From: Ceratodon purpureus
Taxonomy: Eukaryota; Streptophyta; Bryopsida; Pseudoditrichales; Ditrichaceae
Assembly (NCBI GenBank): GCA_014871385.1
Contig: CM026423.1
Location: 359,475-423,474, forward strand
DNA length: 64,000 bases
Direction: 5' to 3'
Shown here: positions 30,015-58,799 of the stretch, piece after piece
Layout: the number at the start of each line of letters is the position of its first letter
How positions within the stretch are numbered: the stretch's first letter is position 1
Made by a program: the position numbers and the translations under genes
Notes under the pieces: model-generated
Seen by the model: only the letters and a program-made list of their open reading frames with translations
Database searches by the model: none
What the model was told of the DNA's origin: nothing

Positions 30015-30018
30015 ATTA

Positions 30019-30115
30019 GGGTGAGAGTACACTACACCGGGTACACTTTGGGCAGATTTTAGAAGTACTTTTATAGTACATTTATACTAGTAGTATCTGT
30101 AGTACTTCTCTGGAT
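30019..30115 (+). repeat. Left end of element B with AGTACT motifs
   Basis: After the 20-base terminal match come agaagtactttt, tagtacattt and tagtacttc within 70 bases. The mirror arrangement is present at 58,560-58,667. The stretch 30,120-31,020 after it has GGGTTAG-like repeats and is probably the SET gene's promoter and leader. Confidence 0.6.
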
Positions 30116-31020
30116 AACCGTGGCCGTCGATTTCACCACCGCGATCCACCTGCGCCCATGCTCAGATCGACCAATCACGTTGGTCTTGACCGGTGGTCTC
30201 AGGTAACTGGATCGGGTCTCACCTGTTGTAGCCGGTAGTCATCGTCTCGCACCTCCAGATTTCTCCAGTCTCGTTGGTGTTGGTGGTGTTGGTCTAAGTT
30301 AGTCTCGGTTGTGTTTTGTGGTTCGCAATTTGGTTAAAAGTTTTGATTTTTCAAGAGGAGGGTCTTTTGTTTTGATGTTAGTTGTTATGTTGTTAGTTCA
30401 GATGGAGGGTTAGGGGGTTTTGCGAGGGATAGAGGGTTTAGGGTGTTAGAGGGTTTGAGGGTTAGAGGTTTCTGTGAGGGATAGAGGGATTGAGAGTTAG
30501 AGTTTTTGTGAGTTGCATGTGTTCTGCTTAGGGTTGGTTTTGCAATCTGCTTAGTTGTTGTGAGTTCTGGAGAGGAGAGTTATCTGTTGTGTTGTTTATT
30601 GCTGTGTTGTTAGTTCAGATGGAGGGTCAGAGGTTTTGTGAGAGATAGAGGGATCGAGGGTTAGATGGTTTGAGAATTAGAGGTTTCTGTCAGGACTGAG
30701 GGATTGAGAGTTACAGTTTTTGGGGGTTGCGTGTGTTTGTCTTAGAGTTTGGTTTCAGTTGGGATTTCACTTGTTTGTGCATCATTGTTTAATGTCTTTG
30801 TTTGTTGGAGATGTGGTTTGTTATTGGGTGCGATAGCTCAAATGGGTATTCAGAGTTTGAGGATATAGAGTTAGAGTCTTCTGTCGCAGTTTTATTGTTT
30901 TCCCTTAAGTGTTTGCGATAAGGTTTAGCTGCTCCTCTAGGGAAAGAGCTGGAATATTTGTTTAGGGTTTAGGGTTCGCATAAGTTTGGGGCGGGGATCT
31001 TGTTGTATACGTGTTTAGCA

Positions 31021-34000
31021 ATGTCGAGGAAGTCCGGGGGTTTAGAAGGGGTGATATCAACTTCGAGGGATGGAAAGAATAGGTCTAGAGGGAGTGCTGG
31101 ATCTGGGATGGGAGTGAAGGTTGTTAAGACTAAGTCAGGGGGCAGTGAAGCACCAGGGATGCCAGTGAAGGAGGAGGAGCGCTTTCTCAACATCGACGAG
31201 TTGCAGGAGTTGATAGATGGCTTGAAAACTCCTCCGGATGTGCTAACTTGGGAGGACTTTCGCGACAGGTACAATCTGGAGTGCGGGCCGAACTCAATCA
31301 ACCCCCATCGTTGTCGGAAGGATAAGGACATCAGCGACAAGACAATGCTGGAGCTTGGGTTGAAGCCGGAGGGGGTTAAGGGGCGTGGTGGATATTCGTG
31401 GTCAGAATGCAAGGTGCGGGAGATAGTGAACCGTATCAAGTATATGCATCCAATCGTGTATCAACACGGTCCTGAAGAGATACCTAGATGCGTGACCAAG
31501 CAGTTTGCTGTTGGCGTGGTCTTGAAGTACCAGAATAACTTGGTGAACTGGGCGTTGTATGGCCAAGAGACGAATAATAGCCAGCGGCGAAAATACGAAC
31601 AGGATCTCTCGAAGCTCCAATTTGCCATCAACACGGGAGCAAAAGTGACGAAGCGGACTTGGAGGAGTCTCAAGGTTGATGCTGCCGTGAAGGTGAAGTT
31701 GGAGCCGAACGTTGGAATGGAGGCTGCAACGCCCACTAAGGTATGTGCACTAAACTCTATTTTGTTTTCCTATTATGTCAGTTGTTGATGCAATGCAATT
31801 TGCTTAGGGTGTGTGATATCGGTTTATGTTATAGTAGACATTGCAATGACAATAGATTAATTTCGATTTCTAGTTTAGAAAGTTACTGAAAATTAGAACT
31901 TTGGATCTAACGAGTCAGTGTTATAGTATTCTGAGTAGGTCTATGCTTTGCATTGCATTAGCCAGATCAATTGAAATGAATTACAGTGTAGTATACATCT
32001 TTTCTGACTAAGGTTAATTTCTCGGGTTTTGGTTTCTGTCTGAATGCGACATGTATTCTAAAAGCATAGTTTTTAACTAGTAACTGTTTGTTTCTTTGAC
32101 TGTCGTTGTTGTTGTAGAGGAGGGCTATACCGCCACCTGGCAATGTGACGACCAGTAGAAGGCTCGGGGTGAAATCTGAATTCCCTAACTCCACAGTGAA
32201 GGTGGAGGATCGGGGGATAGCCTCGATGTCAAAATTGGAGTACTTCCAGACGATGCACACGGTTTTGCTAATGGAGATAGAGGGATTGAAGTTGGACGAG
32301 GAGTTGGCGAAGAAAGCTAAAGATGGAGCTGCTCAGGACCAGCGGTTGGCGCTCTTGATGGTGGAGTCATACGAGGCTAATTTGGCCTCTCTCCAAACTG
32401 CGGACGTGGCACATCCGGGAAATGAAGCGAAACGGAGTTTACTAGCCGAGCTGTTGGAGGAACAGAAGGAAGTTCTAGGAAGGAAGGAGGCAGAGGCGCT
32501 ACAGAGGGATTTAGCCGCAGCAGAGTGTCGCAGGTTGCGGGAGCAGAAGACGCGGATGTGTGAAGGGGTGAAGGTGGAGATCGATCGCATCAAATATGGG
32601 AGGCAATCTGCGAGCCTCAACCCTGTGCCTCTTGTGTACCCTGATTCGGCGTTTGGTGAAGACGAGTCTCCCGAGCGCAGGTTCTTGAAGATCACCAAGT
32701 GTGCCCTTTGCGGTTTCAACTTCCCCAAGAGTGATATAGTGATAGCAAGTTGTAAGCACATGTATCACCCTTTCTGCGCAAAGGTGACCTACGAGAACGG
32801 GTACAAGTGTGCTGCAGGTAACTGTAGTGATAAACTGGTAGACCCGGATTGGCACCGTAGTTTCGGGTGGGGAGGTCCAGGTACACTTGTTGTCGAAGAT
32901 GTTGCTGCCCAGATTACCTTTTGTGACGAGGAGGTGGCGCGGTTGCTTGCTGAACGAGCTGAACGAGCTAGGCTACGATGTCCAAACACAGGTCAGTACT
33001 ACGGTGGTTTTTATTTCAAGTGCCATCCTGCCTTGCTGTTCTGAGGTACTGCCTTAAGGTTTCTTGTTTCTAGGGGACGTATAGCTTATGGTACTGATCT
33101 TCCTTTTAGTATTAGGGATAGTACTAAAGATGTACTCGGTAGCATTTTCTAGTTTTCAAATTAAACGTAGAGTCACTAATCACAAGTACTTGTCTTGCAG
33201 AGGCTCAAGGAAGATTACATTCCCCTCTACAGTTTTTACTTTCTGTACTTGGATGCATTATTTGTTTTTTTTGTTTTCAGTACATATTGTATTATTTAGT
33301 ACTTTCATGTACATATTGCTTATTTCACAGAGTTTGTGTACATCGAATACTTTTGGTAAATACAATTGTTGACGCAGTAGTTGTGTATGCTGTACTTGAT
33401 GTATTCATGTTCAATTTCTAGAGTACTTCAGTGTAGTACTCTTTGTATGAGTGATAATCTATCTGTAATACGAAGCTTACTTACTAGTACTTGTTTCAGT
33501 TACACTAGTACTTAGGTAGCCTAAAAGTACTACGTTGGTCTAGAATAGTACATTATTGTAGGATGTATAAGCAAAGTATCGAGGGAGATGAGGCGCAGAA
33601 GTACTAATAGTAGTCTCTGCTATAGTAGATGTACTTATAGTATATTGTTGTACTTCTGATGGACTTGTTAATTCAGATTGTTTGTTTTTTGATGACAGAT
33701 TCGTCATTGAAGCCGATGTCCTGCCTTTCTCACGGGCTTGCTAGTGGTGGAGAGCAAAGCCAAGCTGTTTCTACTCGTTTCAGAGACTCGGCTGGTGGAG
33801 AAACCTTTACTAGCAGTCTACAGGTGGTCCGAGAGTAGGATGGAGGTAAGATGGTGGTGGACAGTCCTGTGAAAATTAATCTGACAACCACAAGGTCTGG
33901 ATGCTCAATTGGGAGATCTGAGGGACGGAAATCAGGAGCACGAGCTCAACTACCTCCGGAGAAGGTTTTTGAGTGCCTTGAGAAAGACTCGCGGGGGAAA

Positions 34001-37000
34001 TCCAAGGTGACGGAGCCAGAGTTCATTGAAGAATCTGAAGATGAAGACTCTGAATCCGAAGGTATGCCCTTCTAACTCCACTTAAATGAAAGTGTTATAT
34101 TATATACTTCACATTGTATTTCAGTTGTTATATGAACCTAGTGAATGGAAAGTGCGTGATTTGTCCACAGGGTTTAAAGTACTAACTGTTCATGTGTGAA
34201 TGTGTCAGAGAAATGTCCTGATCTATCTTCGAATTCGGGGACTACAGCAAGTGGCAGCAATAGTGAGAGCGAAGGGAGCGATAATGAAGACAATGAGGGA
34301 GAAAGTGGCCATAGTCCCCAGGTTCTGCAGGTACAGGACGACAGACCAATAGAAGATAATGGGCTGAGGTTGGACATCGAGAAGAAGTTTAGGGATGAGG
34401 GGCTGATCCAGAGTCCACCCGTTCACGTGGTGGCCAAAGAAGACATACAAACCGATGAAGGCCCTTGTGAAGACGACCCGAGGAGTGACGCGGGTGAGGA
34501 AGGTGTGCGAAGACGTGACATAGGCTTAGGGTCCGGGGAGGTTAAGAGAGATAGTGACATGGAGTTGGACAGTGAGATAGAAGGAGGAGGGGAGACTAAG
34601 TGTAAGGTAGGGGGGGATGTACATCACTATGGCAGAGATGCGTCAAACTTGACGTAAATCCACACTATCCTGAATTAGTGTGGAAAAAATATCCAATTAA
34701 ACATGGCGCGCGTCAAGCGTTTTAACGTGAAAAAGTCACCAATAACGTCACTGCGTCAAAGAGGATATGGGTGAAACGCGAATAAAATTTATACGTTCCA
34801 AATAACGGCATCACGTTAAATTAAACGGACACGTTCCTGTTGGGCAGTAAATTTTTCACCTACTTTTTTACCTCAAGGAACTTTAGATAAGACTAAATAT
34901 AGTAAGTCTCCACGTCAGCACGTTTCTTATAACAGGAAGGACGTCAATCTTAACAGGTGCTACGTTAAAATGTGTTAAAAAAAACGTAACACATTGACTG
35001 ACGTGGAATGAGTGCGCTGACGTGGAATGCTTGAAGAGTCAATGGCTGACGTGGAAGGTAGTTTTGACTATGGTTGACCATAGTAGTATCCAGAGCAGCG
35101 CGTTTCTTATAACATTGAGGCGTCATAGGTAACATGCGCCACGTTCAAGTGTGTTAAAAAAAACGTACCGAGAAGTCTGACGTGGAATGACTGTGCTGAC
35201 GTGGAATGCATTGTAGGGTGATAGGCTGACGTGGAAGGTTTAGGGTTTGACCGGTCAAGTAATGTTTGAGAGCCCGGGGGGGCTGTCAACATTGACGTGC
35301 GCGTTTCTTGTAACGTAATAGTGCGTTCAGATGTGTTACAAAAAACATGACGAACCTATTTGACGTGGAATGCGAGCCGTGACGTGGAACGTGTGCGTGG
35401 ATGGGTTGGCTGACGTGGAATGCAGTATTTGACCAGCAATATTTAATTTGGGAGACTAGGAGGCATTGACGCATGTGTTTCTTGGAACAGGAAGTGTGTT
35501 AAGATGTGTTACAAAAAACGCGACACTACATATCTGATGTACCGCGCATGTTAGTTGAAACAGATACTGCGTTAATAGTTGTTACAAAACACGTCCAGAC
35601 ATTTATGAAAATGTAACACAGTATGGAATTCATAACGACATTGTAGGAAGCCTAATCCTCTGATGTAAACTCACTATCAGATGAATCACCCAGGATCTGG
35701 TCGTCATCCTCATCACTTCCCTCCCCTGCCACTGGCTCGCCTTCCTGCTCTTCTACAAAGGACCCGTAAGCTGAGACGTCTGAATGTGAAGGCTCTCCTG
35801 TGCACAGCTCTGTGTTATTGGCATGTGGTGAATTTGAGCCGGGTAATTGTGCCTCTGCATCGTCGTATTCTGCAGCAAAGGCACGACCTCTGCGGCTGCC
35901 TCGAACATTTGCCTTGCACACCACTTTCCATGGCCCCTGGTCCGCCATAAAAAACACTTGATGTGTGTGAATGGGGAACGCGAAAGAGTGGGGACCCAAA
36001 GGAAGAAGGCAGTTTGCCGAAAAATTCATGGACAGAAATCCATGTTGATCCCGCTTCATTGTTGGTGAAGCGCCTCCCATTTTTCCTTTCACCCAGGAAC
36101 AGAGAAGAACAACGACACACGTGCTCCTATACTCTAATTCCAGTATTTCTTCAACCCAACCTACATACTCCTCTGTCTCTTCTCCTGCGTCGTCGGTGAA
36201 TATTGCATGTACTCCACTGTCCATAGAAGTCCTAGAAGCTTCAACTGAGCGACAGCGGAGGTGCATGCCGTAAGCCTTCATTGATCGATAAGCAGTTGCA
36301 ATCAGCGAGGGGGGTCTCGACAGATCATAAGTGGTTTGATCGATGGTCCGAGAGCGTGTTCTCCGATCGGCTTCAACGGTTTGTTTCAACCAATCCGGAA
36401 ATGGGGCCAAAGGCCTCAACTGTGAAGGAATGTCTGAGGAATTCCGTCTTCTTCGTCCACGTCTTGCGCGATTTCTCAAGCGGCGTTCTGTGCTCCTGGA
36501 ATTCTGCTCTGCTTCATACACCCTGCGGTGTGCAAAATGCATTAGTAGTGCGTGCAAACATGAAAAGGACTGACCAAGGTCCGTGCAATTCACTATAGGA
36601 AAGCATTGGGGAAAATGACGTAGTTTAACGGGACATTTTAACGCATTTTCTTGTTTTAGGAGTGACATAGTAGTCACCAAAGACAAGGACTGTAACGCTG
36701 TCCTGAATGTACACGTTACTAAAAACGTTGCATACATGTTAACCCACGTTTAATCACGTTTAGGCACGTTAAATCACGTTCAGGCAAGTTAATCCACGTT
36801 CAGACATGTTAAACTGTAAGTAAGATTCCGGAAATGCTATTATCGTGGAGTATATATGATTGTACCTTCTGTAGTACTGAAGTGTACCAGCATTTCTGAT
36901 CACAAAGTTGTGAATCCAGTCACGGAGAGTCCGAGACATAGGGCGTCTTATTCCCTTGCCCTCTACCATCTCATCATACATTGACTGCTCTTCGTTTGCA

Positions 37001-40000
37001 TCCCAGACTCTTCGAGATGTAGCCCCGTAGCGTTCCATATACTCTGAACAAAATCCGAGGGTTTCTTCCATATAATACGCCTCTGCCATGCTACCTTCTG
37101 GATTCTGCTTCAAATGCACATAATCCTTAAGGGTCTTCATGTATCGCTCCATTGGATACATCCAGCGGGTGTGAACTGGGCCGCATATAAAGAGCTCCTC
37201 CATGAGGTGCACAAATAGGTGCGTCATGATGACCATAGATCCTAGAGGAAACTCTCGCTCAACCATGCAAAGCGTCTCATTTGCGTCTTCAGTGTACTCT
37301 TTTTCTTTAGACATATCCACTGAGCCACTGCACAGGCGTCGGAATACTCTGCTGACCCTCATAATACACAGCCGAACGGCTGCGTTCATTTCAACATTCC
37401 GTAGTGAATTGGGTAGTATCTGAAAATTGACATGATGTAAAGGATTATTTTCCAGAAATAAAGATTGAGCTCATATTGCCATCATGTTAAATTATACGCG
37501 CACCACATCAGAGCTGCGTCAAAAAGGACGTGTTTTAACGCGAGTTTTAACAGTTTCCTTTAACGTAGATATTTTGGATCATTGAAATGAATATTCAGAC
37601 GAAAAGAAATATCCACATCGTGAGGTAGCATTGCCACATTAAACAGTTCTGAACGCAAAGTTGGTAGAAGTTAACGTGAACTTAAATTACCTGTTGCATG
37701 AGGATGTGAAAGTCATGGGATTTCAGAAGCCTGAGTCTCCCGTCAGAAACTCGTTTATGAATTGCGGAAGAAAAATTTGTGGGCACCCTTGTTGATGCTA
37801 TCACAGCAAGCATGTCTGCCTTCGCTTGGGGAGAGAGTACGTAGGGCGCATGCGGCATGAAGAGTCGCCCGTCTGTACCGTGTGTTCGTCTCAGCCATAG
37901 GTCAGGCCTGACTCCCATGTCTTTGTAGTCCTGCCGTCCTCGTGGAAAATCCGTCTCTCCAAACAACGTCTTGACTATGTTTTCACATAGGTTTTTCTCG
38001 CAGTGCATGACGTCCAGTGTGTGTCGTATGAGCAAGTCCTGCATCACATTGAATATGTTCATGGGGCTGTAAATAATTTGTATGTATCCGAGTTGGAAAA
38101 CAACCGTAGCGATCTAAAGCGAGGAAAAGCTTTCAGCAGTCAGTTGGTCACGTTTATTGGGACGTTGAATAACACAATTTGACGTCAACGCATTTCTAGA
38201 CGAGCGCGTTTCTTATAAACGTGAATGACTGTTTTCACTTGTTTTATGGTGTATCTCCCATGTTTAGTGGGATGCCTAGTGACAAAGAAAGACGAGCAAG
38301 ACATGAAACAGAGCAACTCAGAGCGCTCACCTTCCAATACGGGAGAGTAAAGAGTATTGAAAGCCTTTTCACCCCGTGCGTCCTCACTGGATCCTCTGGA
38401 CCCTCTGCCCTTCCTCCCAAGGCAAGGTATGACTCCCTTTCTGCTGCAAACTGTAAAACATCTTCGCCAGACATTCTCGAATTGGAAACCTCCTTCTCTT
38501 GAAGCCCATTGAACCGCAGGTCTTCACGAAAAGCATGGTCCTCTGGAAGGCGCTGGCGTGCACCTACGTACACTATCTTCTCACCTTTGGGGCCTCTAGC
38601 GCTTCTAGAAACAGTGTCTGGGCCGCATACGGTGCAAGCTTTGTATCCTATAGTTTGCTGTCCAGAAATCAAACCATAAGCAGGATAATCTGAAATAGTC
38701 CATAAAAGTATACCCCGAAGAGTGAATCTTCTTTGCACGTCTTCAGCTGAAGCGTCTATCGCTTCTACTCCCTCCCATAGCTGCTGTAATTCTTCCACTA
38801 GAGGAGCAATGAAGATATCTAAATTCTTGTCTGTTGGAGACTCCTTGCCGGATATTAAAATGCTCATCATGATGAAAAACCGTTTTGTCACCAACCACGG
38901 TGGCAGGTTGTAAATAACCAAGAGAACAGGCCACGTTGAATGTGAGGTACTTCGAACCGAGAAAGGGTTCACTCCATCAAGTGACAGTGCCATGCGTACG
39001 TTCTGGTTTTCCGCTTGAAATGTGGGATCTATGACTCCAACGTGTTTCCAAGCGGGGCTGTCAACTACGGTCTCCATTACAATCTCACCATCGCTGTTCG
39101 TGGTCACCCCACGCTCTGAATGCCATTTCAGGAGCTTTGCAATTGCGGGAGACCCAAACATGCGCCTCAACCTCGGAATGAGGGGAAAGTGTCTTATAAC
39201 CTTCATCGGAGCTGCCTTTGTACCTTCTCTGTATCTTCCTTTTCCGCAACTGGGACACGATTCTAGATCGCTGTGTTCTCCTCGAAATAAGACACATCCT
39301 GACGGACAGGCATGTATTACATTGTATGCGAGTCCAAGTGCCTGCAGCATCCTCTTCGCTTGGTAATGGTTTGCAGGCAACACATTATCTTCTGGAAGCA
39401 GCTCCACTGTCAGATAGTGAAGCAGCTCAGTTTCGAAGTTCCGACTCACTCCATGCGTGGTGCACAATGTCATCAAAACGACCACTGCTGAAATCAAGCT
39501 CACAGAACTGCCTGGATAAAGTGGGCGTGAGGCCTCTGCAGACAATAATTCCAAAGCCTCAACTGTGGGGTCAGGTAAATCTGCGGGATGTTCATCGTCT
39601 CTCTCCATGTTCTCAGAGTCCCGTGTCAGCTCTTCTAACTCTTCAGCGGTTCTAATGGCGTCCTCAAACTGTTGCTGTACATCGTGGAGGCCATGTGGTT
39701 CACAATCTGGGTCTTCGGGTGGAATCTGCTCAAACTCTTCCTCATTGCTGCAGACATTGTCCTCTGTCCATTCCTCGTCGCTGTAGTACCAAGCCCCACG
39801 CTCTGGGTACCCCCCTGGAGGATCCCCGCCAATCATGGAGTGGTTCAGAAATTGGTCGCGGCCATAAGAGGTGAGATGCCGTGTTATAGCACGCACAGGC
39901 AGACGTCGGCCTCCATGACAGTATGTGCACGGGCATGACCATCTCGTTATTGGAACATCCCTAGTTGCAGCAAACTGAAGTTCATGGCAATGAATAATTT

Positions 40001-46000: not shown

Positions 46001-49000
46001 TAATGCCTTGTTTGTATTGTAGGGTGGATTTGCGAAAGGAGTGGCGGTTCAATTGTTGAGCAAACCTCGTGACGACCCCGAGTCCGAAGTTGTTGGAGCA
46101 GGAGTGTTGCATGGACTGCCTGGAGAGTCTATACATTGCATGACCATAGAAGATGATGAGTTCTCCGTCCAGGTGCAGTCCAGCCTCAAAGACGACCACG
46201 AGCTTCAGTGTCCTGTGGAGGATGAAAACGTCCTCTCTATGAATCAAGCCATAGGCTGGTTCATTCGCTGGCCTGCGACAGACATGAGACTCCTGGACGC
46301 CCCAATTGAAGAACCATCGAAGGCAGTGGGAGGCGCTGGTGACGCCACTACGGTCGCTCCTGACTCCAACGCCACCAATGCAGCATCACATGGGAGAGCA
46401 ACAACACGAGCTGGTGCAAAGAAACTCAAGTCTCCAGTGAAGGAATCGGCCAAGTCTCCTCCACAGAATCAGAAGCCGAAGGAGGATACAAGGAAGTTGC
46501 CTAAGAAAGTTGCATTTAACAACAAACAACAGGTCAGTTTTCACACTCCCTCACCTTGATGCACAAGTAATGTTTGACGCGGTTTAACGTGGTTTAACGT
46601 GTATGTCACCCTTGGATAACATGTGCGTTAAACTGCGTTAAACAGCGTTACTTTAGACAGTGTTCTCCTTTAGTGCAGTATGGGTTTTGATGCAAGCGTA
46701 GGGGCGGTGTTTTCCAATACGCAGGAGCGCTTCATTCGTCTACGGTCTCGGGCACCCGAATCACGAACTGAGCAGAAATGTAGATCCCATTTGAAGGCAT
46801 TGGTCGAGGCCATTTCTTTCCTCTACCCTGATGATGACGCAGTTGTGTATACAGGAAGAAGGTGGGGGTTCGGTGAAGTTGACGGGACAGAAAGCAGCAC
46901 TGCCGGTGAAATGCTTTAAACGGGTATGCGCTCAATGATCCTTTTCCATTACATGGATTGTTTGGTTGATATGTTGCAGTGACCTCACCGTTCCCTTGAT
47001 TATGTTCGCCACGCAGATCAAGAAGAACTGAGCATGACTCTCCGGATGTACGCTCGATTTGCTTTGTTTACATGTCAACCGCATCTCGAGGAGGTGGATC
47101 CATTGATTTTGGTAGAAAGCTGTACGCATCTACGTTCAGCAGGTAGCCTTTAGGTTCTGGTGTATTTGACATTGCTCTTCACTGTATCCGTATTGTTTTA
47201 AATGCAATCCAGATTTTTTCATATTGTAGCACACTTCTTTGTGCGCATAGTGAAGTGCACATTCTTACACCCATGCTCCGTTTACTGCTGTTTATATGCA
47301 TATTTGTAGATGTGATATGCACGTTTTTAACGACGTTATAACGTGTTTCATTTTGTGTTACAAAGCGTTTAACCGTATGTTACATAGCGTGGAATTGTGT
47401 GTTACAGCGCGTTTCATTTGTGTGTTACAGAGCGTTGAGCTGTATGTTACAGCATATTTAATTGTGTTTTAATTGACGCTTCGTTTGCGTTTTGAATGAC
47501 GTTCTCTTGCGTTACAGAACGTTATCGCTCACGTTTAATAGTGTTTGTATGTGTCACAATGATCATGAGCAATGCGTCTGGATAAACATTAAATCGCGTT
47601 TCAGTGAACATGCGAATTCCACTTTGATGTCACAAACAGTTGACACCGCGAACGTCAACTTCCGTCTACGTGCGTTTTTTAAAACGCATTCAAATACGTG
47701 AAACATGCGTTTATTAGCGTCAAAACACGTTATAATGAACGTCTACACTACGTTTACGTAAACACACAAAAACCGTCAACATAAACCGTTTCTGTAAACA
47801 TACAAAATCCGACACCGTAAACGCATCCGGGAATATTCTACGATCCGTGATCATGACACGTGTCACCATCTCAGCCGTTGAAATCAAGTGCCACGTCAAC
47901 TGCCACGCAATATCTGACGTGGAATGGACAATGGAGGGAAATATCCACGTAAACTCCAACGTGGAATGAAAAACAGCGGGAAATGCTCACGTGGCAAAAA
48001 GTAACTCCCTCAATTTACTGACCCCAGGTAACTTCTGGCAATTCCGAGTAACGTGGTTTAACAGAGATGACGTGCGCACGTTAAAACGTTTTAACGTATT
48101 ATGACGCGTCGCGTCATAATCAAAAGACCTATGTGACAGGGCGCGTCACTTTTGATTAGTCAAAAAATCCACGTTAAACCGCGTTAAAAACCGCGTTAAA
48201 CGGCGTCATCTTTGACGCATCTCTGCCATAGTGCATGTACTCCAGATGATAGGAGAGGAGGAGTTAGACGAGGGGCAAGAGGAGGCGTTGGAACAGGATA
48301 GCCTAGAAATTTGGGGCAGGCCTTGGACCTCCTTGGTTAAGTCCAATATGGCAGTGGATGTGCCCACCAACCAGGATAAGAAGTGTCAAGAAGTGGAGAA
48401 CCCGAAGGGCATGGAGCAAAGTAACGAAGGAGATGACTTGGCCCTAGGTGTTGAGAACGAGGCCAAGGAGAAACAGGTGAAGGAGAAACAGGTGAAGGGG
48501 AAGAGAAAGTCCTTAGAAGGGAGGAGGCTTCAGGAGGAGCTGGAAGAGCACGGTGTGATTGGAAGATCAGGAAGCGGAGAACAGGGGCCAGCCCAGAGGA
48601 CGCGGGCCAGTAGGAGATCGAGCGAAGGTGATGATTTCGCAACGAAACGGAAGCCTAAGGGTAAAAGGCAGAAGGACTGTGCGATGGAAAAGGGTGGGCA
48701 GAAGAAATCTAGCAAGAGGAAGTCAAAGGAGACCCCTTCTCTTCGTAACTGCCCCGATGTTGGTAGTCCCGGATGCAGCCCAAGCCCAAGCGGGAAAAAA
48801 CTCAAGCCGGTGAACAGCGTACTGGAGTCCTCTAACTAACTGTTGTAGTAGGCTTGTGTAGGATTGTGTAGATTTCTGTAGGCAGTTAAGTATGGGTGCA
48901 AATTTTTTTATACACTATGCATCGTATCTTCACATATACATACGTGGGCTGCTTTGCGTCTATGGTTTTTTCCTCCATACTTTGGTCTGTCTTCTATTCA

Positions 49001-50625
49001 TTCTAATACTTGGTTTTTTCCTCTACACTCTGACTGTTTTGTATGTATCCCAACACGTGCCAAAAGAACTCAACCAATCCACTAATTCTAAGGGAATAAA
49101 ATCTGCCTTGTCAAAACAGGGTCAAGTACTGGTTGCGGACCTATCACAGGGATTGGAGCAAAAACCAGTGCAACTGATCGGTCCTATTGGAAACCCCATC
49201 CCCCTTCCTGAATTTTACTACACTAAAGAGAGCATGGTGTATGTTGAGGAGCCTAATGGTGGCGATTTGTGGAAACCCGTGGGAGAGACATTCAAAGCCA
49301 AAGAGGGATGTTTAGGATGCGGTTCTGACTGTCTAACTTCCGGAAAATCTGGTTGTACGTGCGCCCTGAAGTCAGGGGAATTTGCATACGACACAGCTGG
49401 CCTCCTTCGGGCTGATGTCCTAAAGAAGTTGGATGACAAGCTAAGTTTGGAATATTGTGACAAAGGTGCCGGTTGTTATTGTTCCAGTCTCCCAAAAGAA
49501 GACAAAGACACTACTAGTGAGGAGGAGACAGTTTGTCCTGGTCACAAAACAAGGACCTTTATTACGGAATGCAACTCCATGTGCGCTTGCCATTCAAAGT
49601 GTGGGAACCGGGTCATTCAACATGGCATGACAACGAAAGTCCAGGTAAGGATGAATGAACTAGATAACAGAGTTACTGTTTCCATTATGAAATTTGCGTT
49701 TTTAAATATAAGGTTTTTAACAATTGCTTTGTCATTGCCAGGTTTTCAATACTACTACACGAGGCTGGGGTGTCCGGACAGTGGAGCACATCCAGGCAGG
49801 TAAGTTTTTGTTTGAGCTTGCGGGGGAGATCGTGACTAATGGTGAACTGATCGAACGGAACCACTTGGTGCACAAGCTTCTTGGGTTTAGGCAAACCTAT
49901 ACGCTTCAGCTGGATGCTTGTTGGCGATCAGAAATAATGGCCACGGACAACAACTCCCTATGTATCGATGCAACTCACTATGGCAATGTTGCCAGATTTC
50001 TAAACCACAGGCATGGACCGTCCTAGCTCACTATGTGAATCGTACAATGGAATTCAGTGCTTAGTGTCAAATAGTCCTAATTATTCTTAAAAATTGTTAC
50101 TTTGGTGGTTTCAGGTGCGAGGGAGCCAATGTCATCGACATGCCTGCTCGACTCCACTCAGATGAAGACCGTATCTACCACGTCGCATTCTTTGCCAGAC
50201 GTGACATCTACCCTGGAGAGGAGTTGACTTGGGTAAGCAATACTACTGAATATGAGGCCCTATCCCTACGTCGTCCAGCCTAGTTTCTATTTTTATGTAA
50301 ATTCTAAACTGAATTCTCAGGACCGTAACGACCGTTACTAACCCACGGTTGTCATGTGTCACAGGACTACGGCGAAGACTTTAAGTCTGATGACCGGGAT
50401 ATACCCAGCTTCAGATGTCAATGCGGAAGTAGCAAGTGCCGAGACAAGCAGAGGAAGATAAAACTGAAGTCAGTACGGGAGAAGACAGCGACACCGATGG
50501 CGGAGAAGCCAAGGCAACCGATGGAGGAGAAGCCGATCAGGTCGATCAGCAAAAGCAAAATGAAGAAGAAGCATCACAATCCCTGCAAGTGGACAGTCAG
50601 GAGCCGCAAGAAAACAGTGCCATAA
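31021..50625 (+). CDS. SUVR-type histone H3K9 methyltransferase with RING-like N-terminus, split by a CACTA element
   Basis: Exons: 31021-31740, 32118-32991, 33699-34061, 34209-34624 continuing at 48237-48809, 49120-49644, 49742-50010, 50115-50232, 50365-50625. All joins keep phase. Order: basic N-terminus; coiled coil; RING-H2-like finger (about 32,698-32,830); acidic and Lys-rich linkers; pre-SET (CLGCGSDCLTSGKSGCTC, then ECNSMCACHSKCGNRVIQHG); SET with RGWGVRT, GEIVTNGE, NVARFLNH plus RC across an intron, and ELTW|DYG; post-SET CQCGSSKC. The Zn-binding and catalytic residues look intact, and pre-SET and SET closely resemble plant SUVR1/2/4. An in-frame TAG at 33,836 separates the RING part from the rest, so two genes or a broken gene are possible. 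It lies inside element B as probable cargo. Confidence 0.8.
33100..33690 (+). repeat. AGTACT-rich intron of the SET gene
   Basis: The intron 32,992-33,698 contains well over a dozen gtact or agtact words (for example tagtacttg, gagtacttc, aaagtacta), far above their density in nearby exons. They match the motifs at the ends of element B. Confidence 0.6.
33836..33838 (+). other. In-frame TAG within the SET gene model
   Basis: With the exon 2 donor ACACAG|GTCAGT (phase 1) and the acceptor gatgacag at 33,698, the frame meets TAG here. The same frame then stays open through an ATG at 33,851 to the next donor at 34,061. Only 15 bases could be removed by a local GT-AG pair, too short for a plant intron. 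Confidence 0.6.
34640..35640. repeat. Left subterminal repeat region of the CACTA element
   Basis: Motifs gacgtggaatg, gcgtttcttataac and tgtgttaaaaaaaacgt recur several times each at about 35,000, 35,170, 35,360 and 35,480, in clusters about 180 bases apart. Such arrays bind the TNPA-type protein in En/Spm. Confidence 0.8.
35652..40043 (-). CDS. TNP2: CACTA transposase, TNP2 type
   Basis: Four exons join in frame: 40043-38331, 38038-37691, 37419-36866, 36522-35652, about 1,160 residues. The first has an N-terminal zinc-binding region (CPCTYCHGGRR), a CPSGCVLFRGEHSDLESCPS finger and the Transposase_21 core. Within the core are WPVLLVIYNLPPWLVTKRFF, LLWTISDYPAYGLISG and GYKACTVCG, all diagnostic for plant TNP2. 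Exon 2 continues with IRHTLDVMHCEKNLCENIV and LKSHDFHILMQQ. Exon 3 is the DUF4218 region (GPVHTRWMYPMERYMKTLK). Exon 4 is a DUF4216-like region (VEEILELEY ... HQVFFMADQGPWKVV) and an acidic tail. No frameshift or stop was found, so it may be active. It catalyses excision and integration of the CACTA element. Confidence 0.93.
40060..41009. promoter_or_regulatory. Divergent promoter region of the CACTA element
   Basis: The TNP2 and TNP1-like genes start on opposite sides of this interval. It contains clusters of gcgtttc(a/t)aatgacgtt-type repeats at 40,090-40,250 and 40,765-40,880, the same word family as in the terminal regions. Confidence 0.5.
41010..46559 (+). CDS. TNP1-like second gene of the CACTA element
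   Basis: Exons I can place: about 41010-41334, 41460-41772, 43796-44547, about 44838-45587 and 46023-46532 or on to the stop at 46559. Joins 41772/43796 (phase 1) and 45587/46023 (phase 0) are clean. The N-terminus has YEQLRDERITRNRIEVALRL, usual at the start of plant CACTA second genes. The middle (43,796-44,547) has a very acidic run and then a helical region resembling Transposase_24 (PF03004). A Lys/Glu coiled coil follows. The last exon resembles DUF8039 (NQAIGWFIRWP). A TAG at 41,601 lies in frame of the second exon, so the copy may be damaged or the exon drawn wrongly. Its relatives bind subterminal repeats. Confidence 0.7.
42140..43335 (+). repeat. Pyrimidine-rich tandem repeats in a CACTA intron
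   Basis: Two copies of a 125-bp T-rich unit (42,150-42,365) are followed by five copies of a roughly 120-bp unit starting ggctttcatcacttcatctt at about 42,760, 42,881, 42,999, 43,119 and 43,239. The apparent Phe-rich membrane-like proteins are translations of this repeat. Confidence 0.9.
45760..45950 (+). repeat. Tandem 23-bp TTGCGTTT...TGACGTGAC motif array in an intron
   Basis: About seven copies of ttgcgttttaattgacgtga or close variants follow each other in the intron between 45,587 and 46,023. The same word family occurs at 40.1, 40.8, 41.9, 42.5, 43.5 and 47.4 kb. Confidence 0.8.
46560..48225. repeat. Right subterminal region of the CACTA element
   Basis: From about 46,570, words such as gcgtta, acgtgtttca, tgtgttacag and ccacgtcaac recur densely, becoming gttttaacg and gcgttaaac units near the end. 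A 79-codon frame at 46,680-46,919 is probably downstream of the TNP1-like stop. No other gene is supported. Confidence 0.7.
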
Positions 50626-50639
50626 CATTGAGGAACTTT

Positions 50640-51290
50640 TGCGAAGTTTATGGTCAGAACATTGGAGATATTTGTGCATTGTAGAACTTAACTAAAATCA
50701 ACACAAATTTGTAAACAAATCCAGTCAAAGAACTCCAATGCACTTGCGTATCCAAAAAAAACTTGCATTCACAAAAAAAACATCCGCATTCTCTTGAGTC
50801 TAACAAATAAAAACAGTACAACGTAGATGATCAAACTCTTAAGAAGACGTCAACTTTATAATGTCACTTTGGAAGAAGGTTGAAGCACACAAACATGAAA
50901 ACTGAGAAAGCAATGAAGTGATAAGAGGAGTAAAGAAACACGCAGCAGATGCCACTGGGTCAAGGAATGAGGGAGTACTAAGAGATGCGTACCTAGGTTG
51001 TGACACTGTAACGGTTCTCAGGGACTGAATTGAAGATAAAGAAATACCAATGACCAGAAATACAAAGGAGTAGATATGACCTCGCCATATGGACTATATT
51101 TGTTTCCAAACGGCCACATTCTGGCGGCAATGTGATTGCTTGGGATTCCGTCCCGCTCGGACTATTCTCCTAGAAAAGAATCATTTTCCCCCACTCAGAA
51201 ACTTTCCCGCTCTATCTTCTCCCGCCACATGTACTTGTTAAGACCCAGCTCACGATCTGTCCCACCTACCCATTCAGTCCATAAAAAACT
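50640..51290. other. 3' region of the SET gene, no further gene
   Basis: Sequence after the SET-gene stop is AT-rich and holds no frame or RNA gene that I can support. Confidence 0.4.
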
Positions 51291-51299
51291 TTGAGATAT

Positions 51300-52440
51300 T
51301 GAGAAACAAAAAAAATAATAGTAAGGTAATAAAAATACAAAATGAACGTGAACAATAATAAACAATAAGATAGGGAAAATATTGAAAAAAAAAAAGAAAA
51401 AAAGAAATAAATAAATAAATAAATAGTTTGGAAAACATATAATCAACTAAAAGAACAATAAGTAAAAGAAGAAATATGAAGGCTTTGAAAGATTAAATTA
51501 AATGAAATAAGGAAAGGACAAGAAGAACGAAAAAAGGATAATAAAACATTAATAAGCTTGAAAAAAAAATTGTAAAGAAATAAAATAAAAATAATGGATA
51601 AGATTGATAATAATAAATCAAAATAAAAGAAACCCAAGAACAAGAAGGGAGAAGAAGCTTAAAAAAAAATAAAAAAAAAATAAGGAGGATGAAAGGAAGG
51701 GGAATCAAGGGAAAAGTCAAAGTAAACGAAGTATAAAGAAGGTCAAGAAGAATTAAGAAGCTCGAAAAAAAAAATGTAAATAAATAAAATAAAAAGAATG
51801 GATAAGATTGATAAACATAAATCAAAATAAAAGAAACTCAAGAACAAGAAGGGAGAAGAAGCTTAAAAAAAAATAAAAATAAATAAGGAGGATGAAAGGA
51901 AGGGGAATCAAGGGAAAAGTCAAAGTAAACGAAGTATAAAGAAGGTCAAGAAGAATTAAGAAGCTCGAAAAAAAAAATGTAAATAAATAAAATAAAAATA
52001 ATGGATAAGATTGATAATAATAAATCAAAATAAAAGAAACTCAAGAACAAGAAGGGAGAAGAAGCTTAAAAAAAAATTAAAAAAAATAAAGAGGATGAAA
52101 GGAAGGGGAATCAAGGGAAAAGTCAAAGTAAACGAAGTATAAAGAAGGTCAAGAAGAATTAAGAAGCTCGAAAAAAAAATGTAAATAAATAAAATAAAAA
52201 GAATGGATAAGATTGATAATAATAAATCAAAATAAAAGAAACTCAAGAACAAGAAGGGAGAAGAAGCTTAAAAAAAAAATAAAAAAAATAAGGAGGATGA
52301 AAGGAAGGGGAATCAAGGGAAAAGTCAAAGTAAACGAAGTATAAAGAAGGTCAAGAAGAATTAAGAAGCTTGAAAAATAAAATGTAAATAAATAAAATAA
52401 AAAGAATGGATAAAATTGATAAACATAAATCAAAATAAAA
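51300..52440 (+). repeat. Purine-rich tandem repeat, unit about 204 bp, four to five copies
   Basis: The marker gaagggagaagaagcttaaa appears at about 51,646, 51,850, 52,053 and 52,255, giving a period close to 204. The plus strand is nearly all A and G. Minus-strand Phe/Leu-rich frames repeated here are artefacts. Confidence 0.9.
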
Positions 52441-52444
52441 GAAT

Positions 52445-53530
52445 TTTGAAATATTCACGCGTATCCACTAATACTCAAGTATTAACTAAGCGTTTAAGCT
52501 TATTTCATACCTTGAAGTAACTGTATTCCTAGATTATTTCAAATTAAAATCTTTTAAATATTTTAAATAAATGTGAATAACACCTATGCCTATATCCGCT
52601 TTAAAAGAAAAGTGACAAATTATCTTTGAGTTATAAATTAACTTAATCGAAATAATCGTCCAATAAGGTTCTATTTAAGGCCACATACATGCACATCCAT
52701 ATATAGTTCAATATAAAACAGTTATGTTATTTGGTTGTTGTTAATTTATTTGTAATTGCCTTTATCATTTTAAATCGCCGTTTTGCATTCAGATTTTGGT
52801 TAAATCAATTATAAACATGCATTTACCCAAACACTGGGGGAACTTAAGAGAATATCATGACGTGTCTGTTTTTATCATTAAAAATTATAACCCTTTATAA
52901 TTTTTGGTATATGCTTCAGATTCTGTTAAGCGTTTGTCCAGTTGCAGTATCTGCGGAGACCCAAAGTAAGCTGAGTACTAATAGCTGACGAACAGGTGTT
53001 TTCTAAAGCAGTGGTCCCTTCGCAATAGATAAAGCAATTCCATTATCGCTCCAGATCCCTATTTATAGTGAGACTCGATTGCGCCTGTGGACAGTATGTC
53101 TTAAATTTCAGAACGGAATGTTTTTGAGTTAAAATTAGATGGATCACCTTGAGAATTGAAGAGTAATTTCTGTGGAAATTCCTTCCGACCCTAAACTTAA
53201 CCAACGGTTTTTGATTATTTTTAATTGTGAACATCATTCCAGTCCCACCTAGGCGCTCCATCGATATTGCTACATAACTTATATATGTACCCTAAACCTG
53301 TCTGATTTCTAAGGCCATGTTCATGTTCAACTAACACTACGACTGGTGGAAGACTCTACTTTGCTTAATGGCATTGGGATATAATGGTATCAATGGATCT
53401 CCTTGTATATTGATCCAATCAAACAACGTCCTGCATGGGAGATAGATAACAACCAGGTACGTTCTCACACATGACACATAGATTTCACATGAAAGTGACT
53501 AAGTTATAAAAAACAGGTTCAATTGCAATA
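52445..53530. other. Gene-free spacer between the two genes of element B
   Basis: AT-rich sequence with no supportable frame. It separates the 3' ends of the convergent SET and transposase genes, with the purine repeat on its left. Confidence 0.5.
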
Positions 53531-53534
53531 ATTA

Positions 53535-56500
53535 TCACTCATCGTCATTTTCCCACACCTGTGCTAAAGAGTGTCTCACAACATCGACTACTTCTGAGGA
53601 GATCTTATATACTGGATCCCCACCTTTCAGGCAGTAGGGGGCGAGTTTCATTCGGAATTTGCAGGCTATAACCAGGTGCGATGAAACATGAGCTACGACT
53701 GATTTTTCAAGATATGTGTATGTGTATTCACCCCGGCCAGACTTCTTGTAATAAGTGCCTTCTATGACGAAATCCCCTGCTTCAAATTCGGCACCCCAAG
53801 GACACGACAGAGGAGCCTTCAGTTTATACTTTCGTCGTTGGCATTGCAAGATATAAAAATCAACACCCTCTTCGTTTGGTTGTTCAGCTGGAACCACAAA
53901 ATTGTCACCAATGTCAACGACTTCATCTAGCCTCTCTCCTCGGTGTACCTGAATAAATCAGTAGGTGAGCATCCTCATATTATTCTTCATGTGTCCAGCA
54001 AAGTTACGAATCTAAAGAATTTTAAATCGATTTAAAAAAATAACCTTACAACTGTGATGCTATTACACAACAATACCTGCTCGGCTGGGTCGTCATCCAG
54101 GGTCTCCAGCTCCTCTGACGGCGCTTTGGGCTGGATTTGCACTGCCCTCCTCCCTGGAACATGAGCCGTTTGCTCACAATTCTCCCAGTCTTTATGTATG
54201 CACGATGCACAGAAACATGACAGAGGTCTAACCAGCAAACATGTCTTATTGCTGGTAGAATTCCCCATAATGGAATGGAGAGATCTTGAGCCTGCAATAG
54301 TGTGACACGCCATCGATGACTCCCTGCTGATCTCGCTCTCACCTACGTGCCAAAAGGTACGGTGAATATCTCTGCTGCTAGTCCCTGCATACGAAGAAGG
54401 CGCTCTATTAGAGAAGCCCTCCTGTAAGTACTCAACACATTGGAGTGCGTTCTGTAGCTGCCTCTCAGGGTTTCGAATCTGTTCGATACGTAAAGCACGC
54501 TTCACTACGGCCCCTGCACCATCCCATTCACCTACAATTGCAACCAAAAATGTTAACTAAATCCATATTAATAGCATAGCACATCATCCCCATCTCGTAA
54601 TATAGATTCTGCTCCTCTCACAGAAGTACAAAAGTACACTGTCTCCACTCAAGATATACAGAAGTACATACGCTCCAGTAACAAAAGTACAAAAGTACCG
54701 GAGCTTCACTCAAAGAAGTACAAAAGTACAGAATAACAAGTACCTTTCCCATGTCCAGTCGCGAAAAAGTTCCAGATCATCGAGCAGCCTCCTGTGAGAC
54801 TGGGATATCTAGCAACAAAATACATTGCTGTAGCCCCCTTAAACTGACCTGCACAGCCATCAGAGAATACCCAATGCTCCCTTGGTTTTTCCCCGTTAGC
54901 AATCAACCACCTCCAGTGTAGCATAAGACAATGCTGAACGAACAAACTGTCATGTTTCTTGTCATCCGAAATATAGTAGTGTGTATGTTTTCTGGTGATC
55001 AAATCACCACTCACATCACGGACTCTCTGCAAAGTGATATGGACCAACAAGGACACATACTCAGACATATAGTACATGCTCTGAACTTCGTTTTGAATCT
55101 GGAATTCATAGTTCTCTGCAAAATCGATGTGGGAAACTATAACTCCCTCAGGCAAACCTTCCATCATTTCCTTGCACTGCCAATCCTGCCAATTGGCAAT
55201 AAAATTATGCTTGATAAAGGCCTGAACTTTGGGTTTCAGGTAAGTAACAAACTCCAGAGGACTAGTCTCTTCATATACCTCTTGCAACCTTTTCTTCGCC
55301 TTCCCTGTCTCACGGTCAGTGCCAATAGTAACATACGAGAAGTGTTTCCACCTTAGTTTAGGTTCTTCCAGTGAAGACATCTCCTGTGGGCAAAAACCTA
55401 GAGTATCTACGCCACATTCTTCACAATCACCCATTAGACAAGAGAGCTTGTGCCATTCATTGAACTCTGGCTTCTTGCTAAGACAAGCTTCCCACAAATG
55501 AGTGATCCTCTTAAATATTCTGTGATGAGCATCACAGCCTATACCATCACCCGTTGCAGTCTCCACAGAAGCAGAACAAAGGTCACATTTACAAGAGCAA
55601 TCTATTTGTGCATGCAGACCCCTCTTCTCCTCCCGTAGGGTGTTCAACCCTACCCTCATGAGATCCATTTCTACATGGTAGATGCAGCAGCACACATTAC
55701 GGTCCCTAAGTGGTTTCACATACCATGGTTTCAGATTCTCAAATCGCCGTTGCCCGATTTTACACTCTAGATGAGCCTCTTTGAACTGCAAGAAGAATGT
55801 CGTCTACACACCACATACATAAAAAAGTATTATTAGTACTACAGAACCAACAATCTGAACCTACAGGTACATTGAAAACCGAAAGTACATTCACAGAGTA
55901 CCAACAAATACATATTCGGCATTAACATAATACTACAAGTACCTTGTATTATAATAAGTACTAGTTAAGCGTACATACTCAAAACATAAAGTACTTCAGT
56001 ATACAACACCGCCCCCATCGAGTACTACCTATATTATGAAAACTACATGCGGATTGTACCCTAAATCATAATAATACACATTACATAAATCCATTTGTAC
56101 ACAAAGTAATTTCGCAAGTACACTTAATATAAGAACTAGTACATGTGATACTAATAGTACTCTACTGTTTTCATTAAGGAACATACTTTTTGCACCTTGA
56201 AATAAAAAGAGTAAAATAGGGGAGAATTTTCGACACTATTAGTACTTCTTTGCCAGTACGTGAAGTACTAACGGTGTTGAAGTACTTCAAGTAAAAGCAA
56301 CATTGTACAGTGGGATTGCTGTGTACATGCGGCACAAGATGGTTTTCATGCAAAGTATTGAAGACATACCTGCGTGACTGTCAAATAGTGCTTTGGATGT
56401 GTCTCTCCTCCTCTTTTCAGCCCACCGCCCTTGTTCACGACGTCCTTTCTGTTTGGACTTACTCTGGTTTGACTGTGCCACCAAGCTTGAACTGTAGCAA

Positions 56501-57791
56501 GACAATACTCTGTAGATCCATCTGTGCGTTTTTGCCTGCGAAGGGGTGCAAAGCGAGCAGCACCCTCCTCATACTCTTCTCTCCTTTCCAAGGCAGCTTG
56601 TATATTATCTGTCTTGGTTCCTAAGACACGTGCAAGCGCCCTAACACCCCCAACATTCCCACTAACAGCAGCATCCAACAGAGCACCTTTTCTAGACAAC
56701 ATGTTGTTTGAGAACGGTATGGACACGGACTGTAACTCTGCTCTATAACTTTGAATAAAATAATGAATACTCTTAGCTTCTAAATCTCGAGGATAATAGT
56801 AAGGTAACAAAGGCAAAACAAGATTGTGGCGAAGAACCTTCTCAAACACAATCTGACGACAATGGGGACCAGGAAGTGTGTTGAGCTCATCACACATGAT
56901 GTGCACAATTTTTTGAGCTACCCTAGATGCATCTCGTGTAGAAATGACATCTGAATTCTCAGGCGCTGTGTTCGTCGTAGAAATCTCTCCTCCTTCCGAG
57001 TCCATTGAAATTCTCCTGCGACGGCGTTCCTGGTACAACCGATCGCGCTCTGCCTTCTCTAACCGTGCAGCCTCTACAGTTTCCATTTCTGACGCCCTCT
57101 CCGCAGCACCAGCACGTCGCGGCCTCAACCTTTGTCTCCGGGCTTGGTCCCCCATGCTACAAGTGATGAGACCCGTGAACCCACAGAAGAGACTACGCGG
57201 TTAGAGAAGGCAGATCACATTCTGGAAAAATAGAGGTTGCAAGAGCCTTGTCCTGGACCTACGTGCAAATACAGTGGGGAACAAGTACAACATGTTGCCA
57301 TCAAAGAACATAAATTTGACAACAAAACAAGTACATAATCAGAAATCAAAAGTTCTGCACAAACTTGAGGAGAAACTCACCGAACGCACAGGGGAAGGAC
57401 TTCGACAGTCGGGGTAGCACCTGAGTTCCTGCCGAGGGAGACCGCCCTCAACGGTGAAAGATCCGAACAAGGTTTTGGGCGACTGGACCAGGCGCTCACG
57501 GGACTGCAGCGCTTGGTTTGAATGATGCAGGTACCAGCTAATATCTCCAACCTTTGAAGTTGGAGTTTCGGATACGTGGGTACTGCTAGACACATCATCT
57601 GAGGGACTATCGCATGAATACGTAGTGAAATGCTGACCTACACTCTCAATCTCTTCGTTGACAACGTCGCAGACAGGGTAGTAATGGGTAATTCGCTGCT
57701 GCACAAGCTGCGGGGGATCTCGCACTACGTAGTAAGATGTTATGAGGGACTGAACTAGTGTGCAGTTTGGAAGATGCCCTTCCCCAGACAT
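53535..57791 (-). CDS. RNase H-fold transposase of element B (unclassified superfamily)
   Basis: Exons: 57791-57381, about 57164-56370, 55785-54744, 54531-54077, 53948-53535. Joins among the last four keep phase (0, 1, 0); the first join is uncertain. The second exon ends with VSPNRKDVVNKGGG and YLTVTQ, continued by FENLKPWYVKPLRDRNVCCC. Cys/His pairs follow (CKCDLC, CEECGVDTLGFCP). The presumed catalytic core has HIDFAENYEFQIQNEVQS (first Asp), HYYISDDKKHD, HWVFSDGCAGQFKG (second Asp) and WNFFATGHGKG spliced to EWDGAGAVVKRAL. The C-terminal exon (IGDNFVVPAE ... GDFVIEGTYYKK) is Tudor/SH3-like. I recall such proteins widely in animals and non-seed plants. No stop or frameshift appears in the core. 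It presumably mobilises element B. Confidence 0.78.
54560..54740 (+). repeat. AGTACAAAAGTAC motif cluster in a transposase intron
   Basis: The intron between 54,744 and 54,531 contains gaagtacaaaagtaca repeated with small changes about six times. It belongs to the AGTAC motif family found at the ends of element B. Confidence 0.7.
55800..56300. repeat. AGTACT-rich intron of the transposase
   Basis: Some twenty agtact, gtactt or gtacat words lie in the intron between 56,370 and 55,785. The density parallels the SET gene's intron at 33.1-33.7 kb. Confidence 0.65.
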
Positions 57792-58069
57792 TTGTGTGGC
57801 AAACCCTGGCGATGGCTGCGCCGCAGCTTACAATCCTTGCAACACCGAAAAACAACTTCAGTCGACGTTCAGAACCCTTGCATGCACTGTAGGTGCATGC
57901 AAGAGAAACCATTTGGAGATGAACAGATTCTAGTAGAATTCATCCATCTCTTCAACTAACAGAAGATCCACCTGCATTCGAAACCGGCTAGATCCACTTA
58001 TATCGGACCTTATCAACAACGCGTACGGCTGAGATGTGAGCCCATTGTAATCCGACGGTTCAAAATTCT

Positions 58070-58667
58070 GCAGGAAAGTACTCTAAGTACTTTTCATTTT
58101 GGGAGTACATTTTCAACTACTCTTAGTGGCGGCCACATCAATTATTAATGTCTAATAAAACAACTGATAAGAATGAAATGGCCGATAGCCAACATGGGGC
58201 ACACGTCCAGAAAGCCTTCTACGTAGGAAAATCACAAAAGATCCTTGTATTTTAGGAATTCTAGACTGCGAAAAAAAAAGGCAAAAGGCAGCGAATATTT
58301 CCATGGATCTTCAGCTTCTCCTAGTTTTTTCAAGTGGGGTCCGTAGCCTTTTATGAGTCCTATACCCTGTTACAATATCACAGGAAAAAAAAACATCTAA
58401 CTAAGCATAAATTTGTACTTTGTATAATTTTTGACAATCTAACATACTTTTAAATTTGGGGAAAGTACTACTTTTGTTACTCCATACGACTTTTTTTGTG
58501 ATCTTGGGATTGCGATAACAATGCTAAGCAATGTTCCAATCATATTCTGTGATGGGAAATGCATTCGCACAGATTTTACTTGGGAAAACAGAGTACTTTC
58601 TACCAAGTATTTCCAGAAAAGTACTTTTCTGACATACTTTTTAGGGGGGCGTAGTGTGCTTACACCC
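58070..58667 (-). repeat. Right end of element B with AGTACTTTT motifs
   Basis: The interval holds gaaagtactctaagtacttttc, gagtactttc and aaaagtacttttctg before the inverted terminal sequence at 58,648-58,667. It mirrors the left end at 30,019-30,115. Confidence 0.6.
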
Positions 58668-58799
58668 ATTAAATTTAAAAAAATTGAAATTAAAAATCAA
58701 TCAAAAAATCCATTTGTATACAATCAATCAGATATTTTGATTAAGAGATAGCAGTCAACATTTGTAGACATGAAAAGCCAACAAAAACTCAAAAAATAC

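Follow-up and report, generated by a model that had tools for sequence, protein, structure and literature searches.

DNA transposons with a SET histone methyltransferase gene have been reported from an oomycete: HarbingerS and MuDR elements of Phytophthora, known here by citation only, carry such a gene (Kojima and Jurka 2014, cited in PMC12730594). Fungal TET/JBP DNA transposons carry an enzyme of chromatin or DNA modification, captured in several families (PMC12730594), and in Arabidopsis the anti-silencing protein VANC21 binds the motif YAGTATTAY in introns and terminal noncoding DNA of VANDAL21, where it removes silent marks (PMC5735166), its targets growing by tandem repeats (PMC5735166; PMC10398659). 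Here we describe a DNA transposon of the moss Ceratodon purpureus that carries, beside its transposase, a SET gene of the SUVR type, related to plant methyltransferases of lysine 9 of histone H3 (H3K9). It lies at 30019..58667 of a stretch of 64,000 nucleotides (contig CM026423.1 of assembly GCA_014871385.1, positions 359,475 to 423,474, forward strand), hereafter the window, to which all coordinates refer. An earlier note, made from the letters of the window alone, had placed a SUVR-type SET gene inside a DNA transposon, and this arrangement recurs together with a transposase in four families of elements, A (that of the window), B, C, and S2. We are highly confident that these elements represent a mobile lineage of ~15-kb autonomous-looking DNA transposons that regularly include a SUVR-derived SET gene.

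With the Phytophthora elements the moss element shares the combination of a DNA transposon and a SET gene, but the host there is an oomycete and the transposases belong to other superfamilies; the fungal TET/JBP elements, as described in PMC12730594, carry an eraser, whereas a writer is presumed here. A search of the open-access literature, which leaves out subscription papers and Repbase reports, yielded no example of a SUVR gene in a plant DNA transposon. The statement in the earlier note that no SUVR gene was known to it from a DNA transposon is tempered by the SET genes of the Phytophthora DNA transposons (PMC12730594). SET cargo in DNA transposons has accordingly been reported before, in oomycetes, and the new observation is the crowding of the motif AGTAC/GTACT in the noncoding DNA of the element.

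The left end at 30019 reads GGGTGAGAGTACACTACACC and the right end at 58667 reads GGCGTAGTGTGCTTACACCC; these imperfect 20-bp terminal inverted repeats (30019..30038, plus strand, and 58648..58667, minus strand) match at 16 of 20 positions and are flanked by the target-site duplication ATTA at 30015..30018 and 58668..58671. To place the ends in the genome, we searched the species' own assembly (362,488,568 bases, 151 contigs) with the pattern GGGTGNNAGNACACTACNCC and a control pattern. This revealed 94 GGGTG-type ends in the 362-Mb genome, 49 in forward and 45 in reverse orientation, with 0 matches to the control, and 29 pairs of ends lying head-to-head less than 50 kb apart (19 A-type, 5 B-type, and 5 C-type), so that the pattern is not a product of chance; the distance between paired ends is usually ~15 kb. 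The sequences of 13 of the 29 pairs were read, comprising the window, ten further A-type copies (E1–E10), and one copy each of families B (B1) and C (Cc1). A perfect 4-bp target duplication is present in 12 of the 13 elements, with a different word in each case (the remaining copy, E6, has TATA/TGTA), which bears out the imperfect GGGTG ends and the duplication proposed in the earlier note. The copies E2 and E3 differ by a synonymous divergence (dS) of only 0.003–0.007 across the compared genes, indicating a recent spread of the element.

The 28.6-kb span in the window is not a single element, as its bounds alone might suggest. A CACTA/EnSpm element of 13.6 kb with ends CACTATGGCAGAGATGCGTC (34625..48233, minus strand), identified by its inverted repeat, a tnp2 match, and the comparison with E9, is inserted within the last exon of the first gene of the carrier, between CAT duplications at 34622–34624 and 48234–48236, and copy E9 has the same site without the CACTA and with a single CAT. 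As this is a later insertion, the carrier measures ~15 kb and not 28.6 kb; the bounds given in the earlier note thus hold, but its undivided transposon does not. The tnp2 transposase (38244–40067, minus strand; Pfam E-value 1.7e-65) was rejected as the carrier's own on account of these separate ends and 3-bp duplications, and a CACTA/EnSpm identity of the carrier was likewise rejected, as CACTA ends, a 3-bp duplication, and tnp2 occur only in the nested 34625–48233, the ends of the carrier being of the GGGTG type and its duplications 4 bp long. The nested element looks complete and contains pyrimidine-rich repeats at 42.5–43.4 kb.

Families A, B, C, and S2 share the same gene order, with an open reading frame (ORF1) followed by the SET gene and a convergent transposase, in the same positions and orientations. 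A genome search with SET, for which 103 of 1027 candidates were scored, gave at least 195 matches, including at least 74 pre-SET pieces of at least 56% identity on 12 contigs, and the corresponding transposase search scored 116 of 1197 candidates. Among the matches listed, a SET gene is found in 19 of 19 A-type, 5 of 5 C-type, and 1 of 5 B-type end pairs. These numbers exclude a single-copy SET gene that is syntenic without the transposase and the ends, and show that SET and transposase occur together in other copies bounded by the same ends. Again among the matches listed, 54 of 76 transposase loci of at least 70% identity have SET within 25 kb, with 1.6% expected at random, and these 54 neighbors all lie on the opposite strand at a median distance of 5.9 kb. 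Contig C6 (110.5 Mb, 30.5% of the assembly) contributes 50 of the 76 transposase loci and 53 of the 74 SET pieces listed. C6 is possibly a sex chromosome of Ceratodon.

Family S2 came to light as a widely dispersed group of SET genes 46–47% identical to that of the window. Two of its copies, on C8 and C12, are ~98% identical over ~8.9 kb, and compared with the window S2 shows 31–36% identity in ORF1, 41% in SET, and 53% in the transposase; no end repeats were found in its right flank (locus L059). A further 40 transposase loci at 58–61% identity include 3 with SET among the matches listed, and of the other 37, the two that were sampled each contain a SET gene, with 69% and 61% identity to that of S2. 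The loci L055, L056, L057, and L058 represent S2 and further SET-bearing families; the SET reading of L057 has a stop near its start.

All gene models (ORF1, SET, and transposase) were inferred from sequence without RNA. The SUVR-type SET gene (49093..50626, plus strand; a model that starts at the pre-SET exon and is without the first coding exon) consists of a pre-SET exon at about 49093–49647, SET exons at 49742–50009 and 50115–50232, and an exon at 50365–50626 that encodes the post-SET region and a basic tail; its exons, like those of the transposase, are uninterrupted in the window copy. The second intron (50010–50114) begins with GC and not GT, and an intron at the same NHR/C point is also seen in the SET genes of B1, Cc1, S2, and L058. 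Pfam recognizes Pre-SET (E-value 7.3e-13) and SET (E-value 1e-20), the post-SET cysteines are present, and the aligned A, B, and C copies retain the catalytic-core motifs GWG, NHRC, and ELTWDYG as well as the pre- and post-SET cysteines, in agreement with the intact pre-SET, SET, and post-SET residues claimed earlier; in the S2 row of the alignment the stretch around two pre-SET cysteines is missing. The SET pieces of B and C are 57–90% identical to the window SET, the main pieces 59–68%.

The closest relatives of the element SET are plant SUVR4/SUVR2-type proteins at 40–43% identity, and every named relative is a plant SUVR or SET protein (both among the best 120 of 826 candidates, in a search whose length filter passed only proteins above ~440 residues and whose query included the end of ORF1). 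With plant SUVR1/2/4 the element SET shares Pre-SET, SET, post-SET, NHRC, and ELTWDYG, but it is multicopy on transposons and forms a separate group. In an unrooted tree of 36 rows, the 11 element SETs are separated from the moss host SUVR (P0139, M758_1G137900; 41% identical to the element SET) and 24 plant SUVRs by a branch with support 100/100, and a tree including S2 separates 7 element rows from 25 plant SUVRs with support 100/99; the rows comprise element SETs and 25 plant SUVRs drawn from the 120 listed, with no other SET family, the 36-row tree is without the damaged A copies E5 and E8, and the S2 tree is also without E2, E3, E4, E6, and E9, which are near-duplicates or damaged. The element SETs thus form one group apart from the host gene. 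A single ancient capture is favored by these sequence trees, not proved, as they have no outgroup from other SET families and contain long branches. The N-terminal WIYLD domain of plant SUVR1/2/4 is present in the host P0139 and absent from the element SET model, which is without a first coding exon; a genome search for WIYLD gave at least one match, on C1, a lower bound since introns split the domain.

Substitution patterns show that the SET gene is under purifying selection, and it has been retained across diverged families. Comparing the window with the ten other A copies, the ratio of nonsynonymous to synonymous substitution (dN/dS) is 0.23–0.31 for SET, 0.15–0.50 for the transposase, 0.10–0.20 for the first part of ORF1, and 0.26–0.74 for its last part. 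If single-base gaps where the last exon ends are disregarded, the window, E1, E2, E3, E7, E9, and E10 have an open SET frame, which makes 7 of the 11 A copies. The two damaged copies E4 and E6, compared with each other, show a SET ratio of 0.53, as expected from decay.

ORF1 (31021..48839, plus strand) has inferred exons at 31021–31740, 32118–32991, 33699–34061, and 34209–34624, the last continuing past the CACTA at 48237–48839. Two lesions disrupt the window copy, an in-frame stop (33836–33838) and the CACTA, neither of which occurs in the other copies. Two annotated C. purpureus proteins of 993 residues, P0216 and P0217, are 95% and 94% identical to it. ORF1 is nearly an orphan, with 5 protein relatives among 7999 scored candidates, and its N-terminal 240 residues are strongly conserved. 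A RING-like zinc site in the exon at 32118–32991 (E-value 6.9e-5) falls below the Pfam cut-off, and a Pfam scan of P0216 reported no RING match. The coding sequence that precedes the pre-SET exon was considered as a SET N-terminus and rejected, as it is the end of ORF1: P0216 and P0217 span it with the same stop as the window ORF1, and this end is conserved in B and C.

The transposase (53535..57155, minus strand), convergent to ORF1 and SET, is an open frame of 904 residues over four inferred exons (57155–56370, 55803–54744, 54531–54077, and 53948–53535), matching the complete-looking transposase of the earlier note. Relatives occur in Klebsormidium, Hydra, fish, molluscs, and others, and D489, D577, and D619 are invariant among 38 of them; no Pfam family and no relative with a solved structure were found for it. 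Sola elements are described with 4-bp target duplications, DDD, short inverted repeats, a size of up to >15 kb, and Physcomitrella among their hosts (PMC10741241), and Sola2 with 4-bp duplications (PMC3627910). The carrier, with its 4-bp duplications, 20-bp ends, and ~15-kb size, fits a Sola-like assignment by these descriptions, and its three invariant aspartates may correspond to the DDD; the description in PMC10741241 mentions no SET cargo for Sola. KDZ-type transposons, which are included among the fungal TET elements, were considered and set aside without a test of relatedness. One distant transposase relative, P0063 from the fish Neoarius graeffei, has an N-terminal partial PR (SET-type) domain of the PRDM2 kind (E-value 3.8e-7), which could reflect either a fusion made by gene prediction or a second capture event.

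The motif AGTAC/GTACT occurs 88 times in the 6984 bp of noncoding DNA of the window element (12.6 per kb), compared with 11 times in 6894 bp of coding DNA (1.6 per kb) and 82 times in the remaining 48963 bp of the window (1.7 per kb). These counts leave out an AT-rich tandem array with a period of ~203 bp that self-matches place between the convergent gene sets (51301..52459), the unit number of which varies among other element copies. In 500 dinucleotide-preserving shuffles, 19.4 +/- 5.0 motifs were expected (maximum 37) versus the 88 seen. The densest clusters lie in ORF1 intron 2 (32992..33698; 29 motifs, 41 per kb) and transposase intron 1 (55804..56369; 22 motifs, 39 per kb), with 8 motifs in transposase intron 2 (54532..54743), a left subterminal cluster at 30019..30110 (6 motifs in 30019–31020, all near the tip), and a right one at 58410..58667; none occur in ORF1 intron 1 or the SET introns of the window copy. 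The two dense introns carry 26–44 motifs per kb in seven of seven copies, including B1 and Cc1. Motif 5-mers are retained more than 5-mers of the same composition in seven of eight intron comparisons (0.69 vs. 0.38 between the window and E7, 0.40 vs. 0.08 between B1 and Cc1), although a gapped alignment may preferentially align motif on motif and raise the apparent retention. S2 shows 23 motifs in 2144 bp of noncoding and 12 in 6447 bp of coding DNA, with a flank preference shifted to GTACA and a density partly multiplied by a 124-bp tandem repeat. Among 12 palindromic 4-mers, GTAC is the highest in family A relative to the rest of the window.

This placement is the same in kind as that of VANC targets, in that a short motif accumulates in introns and terminal noncoding DNA belonging to the element itself, with a third gene beside the transposase, and by this likeness we infer that ORF1 or the transposase could read the motif and that SET could act on the element's own chromatin; VANC differs in not being a SET protein, and its YAGTATTAY differs from the candidate motif here. 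In the explanation we propose, the element SET would be an active histone methyltransferase without the ubiquitin-binding WIYLD of host SUVRs; ORF1, which may be the leading candidate for reading the motif, or the transposase would recognize the clusters in introns and ends and bring SET to element copies; and SET would change the H3K9 methylation state of element chromatin in a way that benefits the element. The likeliest route would be that it converts the silencing marks of the host or competes with them, leaving the element able to go on making transposase. We give this explanation, leaving aside the direction of the effect, a probability of roughly 45%, and hold its core, a motif-guided action on the element's own chromatin, with the same reserve. 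The anti-silencing direction, suggested by analogy, is more doubtful. It is conceivable, and somewhat less tentative than that direction, that the element runs a sequence-guided system of its own, in which an element DNA-binding protein and an H3K9 methyltransferase would let each copy determine its chromatin state without dependence on the host, as a counterpart of VANC based on a writer.

Several observations weigh against the proposed explanation. In transposase intron 1, the window and E1 show equal retention of motif and control 5-mers (0.91 vs. 0.91); the introns of A are partly alignable to those of C and in part to B, so that shared motif placement is partly inheritance; and the ratio of noncoding to coding density in A is higher for TTAA than for GTAC (5.8 vs. 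4.1). The clusters might be transposase-binding or splicing-related repeats unrelated to SET, a possible alternative: noncoding DNA is also enriched in certain other AT-rich words, and the motifs at both tips could be mere binding sites of the transposase. Such subterminal sites occur at the tips of other elements. The clusters are, however, densest inside introns far from the ends, and they are missing from ORF1 intron 1 and the SET introns. As to the SET gene, it is broken in 4 of 11 A copies (E4, E5, E6, and E8), and 22 of the 76 transposase loci and 4 of the 5 B-type pairs are without it among the matches listed. Gene capture by transposons is common and, with the broken copies, would suit a host SUVR captured by chance, but a functionless passenger is very improbable given a SET dN/dS that falls within the range of the transposase, a placement and orientation shared by A, B, C, and S2, and the SET genes at both sampled loci of other transposase families. 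The suggestion of a host SUVR locus hit by transposons, or of an assembly coincidence, for which no evidence was found, is refuted by the many copies that share their ends but differ in target duplication, and the one WIYLD match found lies on C1.

The activity of the SET protein and the direction of its effect allow further readings. SUVR4 reportedly turns H3K9me1 into me2/me3 in vitro, and SUVR1 and SUVR2 are inactive in vitro (PMC7218100), so that conserved residues are no proof of activity. The element SET could thus be a catalytically dead scaffold like SUVR2, or have its target elsewhere, in the transposase, ORF1, or a host silencing factor; the basic C-terminal tail and the lack of WIYLD would suit this, but we consider it improbable, as the catalytic motifs are retained at 40–60% divergence. 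A close rival to anti-silencing, which we regard as unlikely although less so than the scaffold, is self-restraint: SET would mark copies of its own element with repressive H3K9 methylation and limit transposition and host damage, so that long-lived families of low activity persist. The nearest relatives are of the SUVR4/SUVR2 type, SUVR4 is described as raising H3K9 methylation, on transposon chromatin according to the title cited (PMC7218100), the motif clusters are equally able to target repression, and the copies are many but moderate in number. The recent spread seen between E2 and E3, however, and the analogies with VANC and TET/JBP point to anti-silencing. Of these two directions, anti-silencing is the one we tentatively prefer.

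H3K9 methylation is a weapon of the host against transposons. That an element keeps its own H3K9-type writer down to ~40% SET identity therefore implies that the writer helps the element, and the element readily lends itself to testing whether selfish DNA can profit from a repressive mark. Should SET be guided by the motif clusters, this would be a natural, self-contained, sequence-directed system of chromatin writing. Gene removal is routine in moss, and a moss host would make the management of transposon silencing directly testable.

Outside the element, two long plus-strand frames of 743 and 490 residues at 21096–24809 have no Pfam match; by eye, the end of this region resembles a SWIM zinc finger, and it may encode another transposase.

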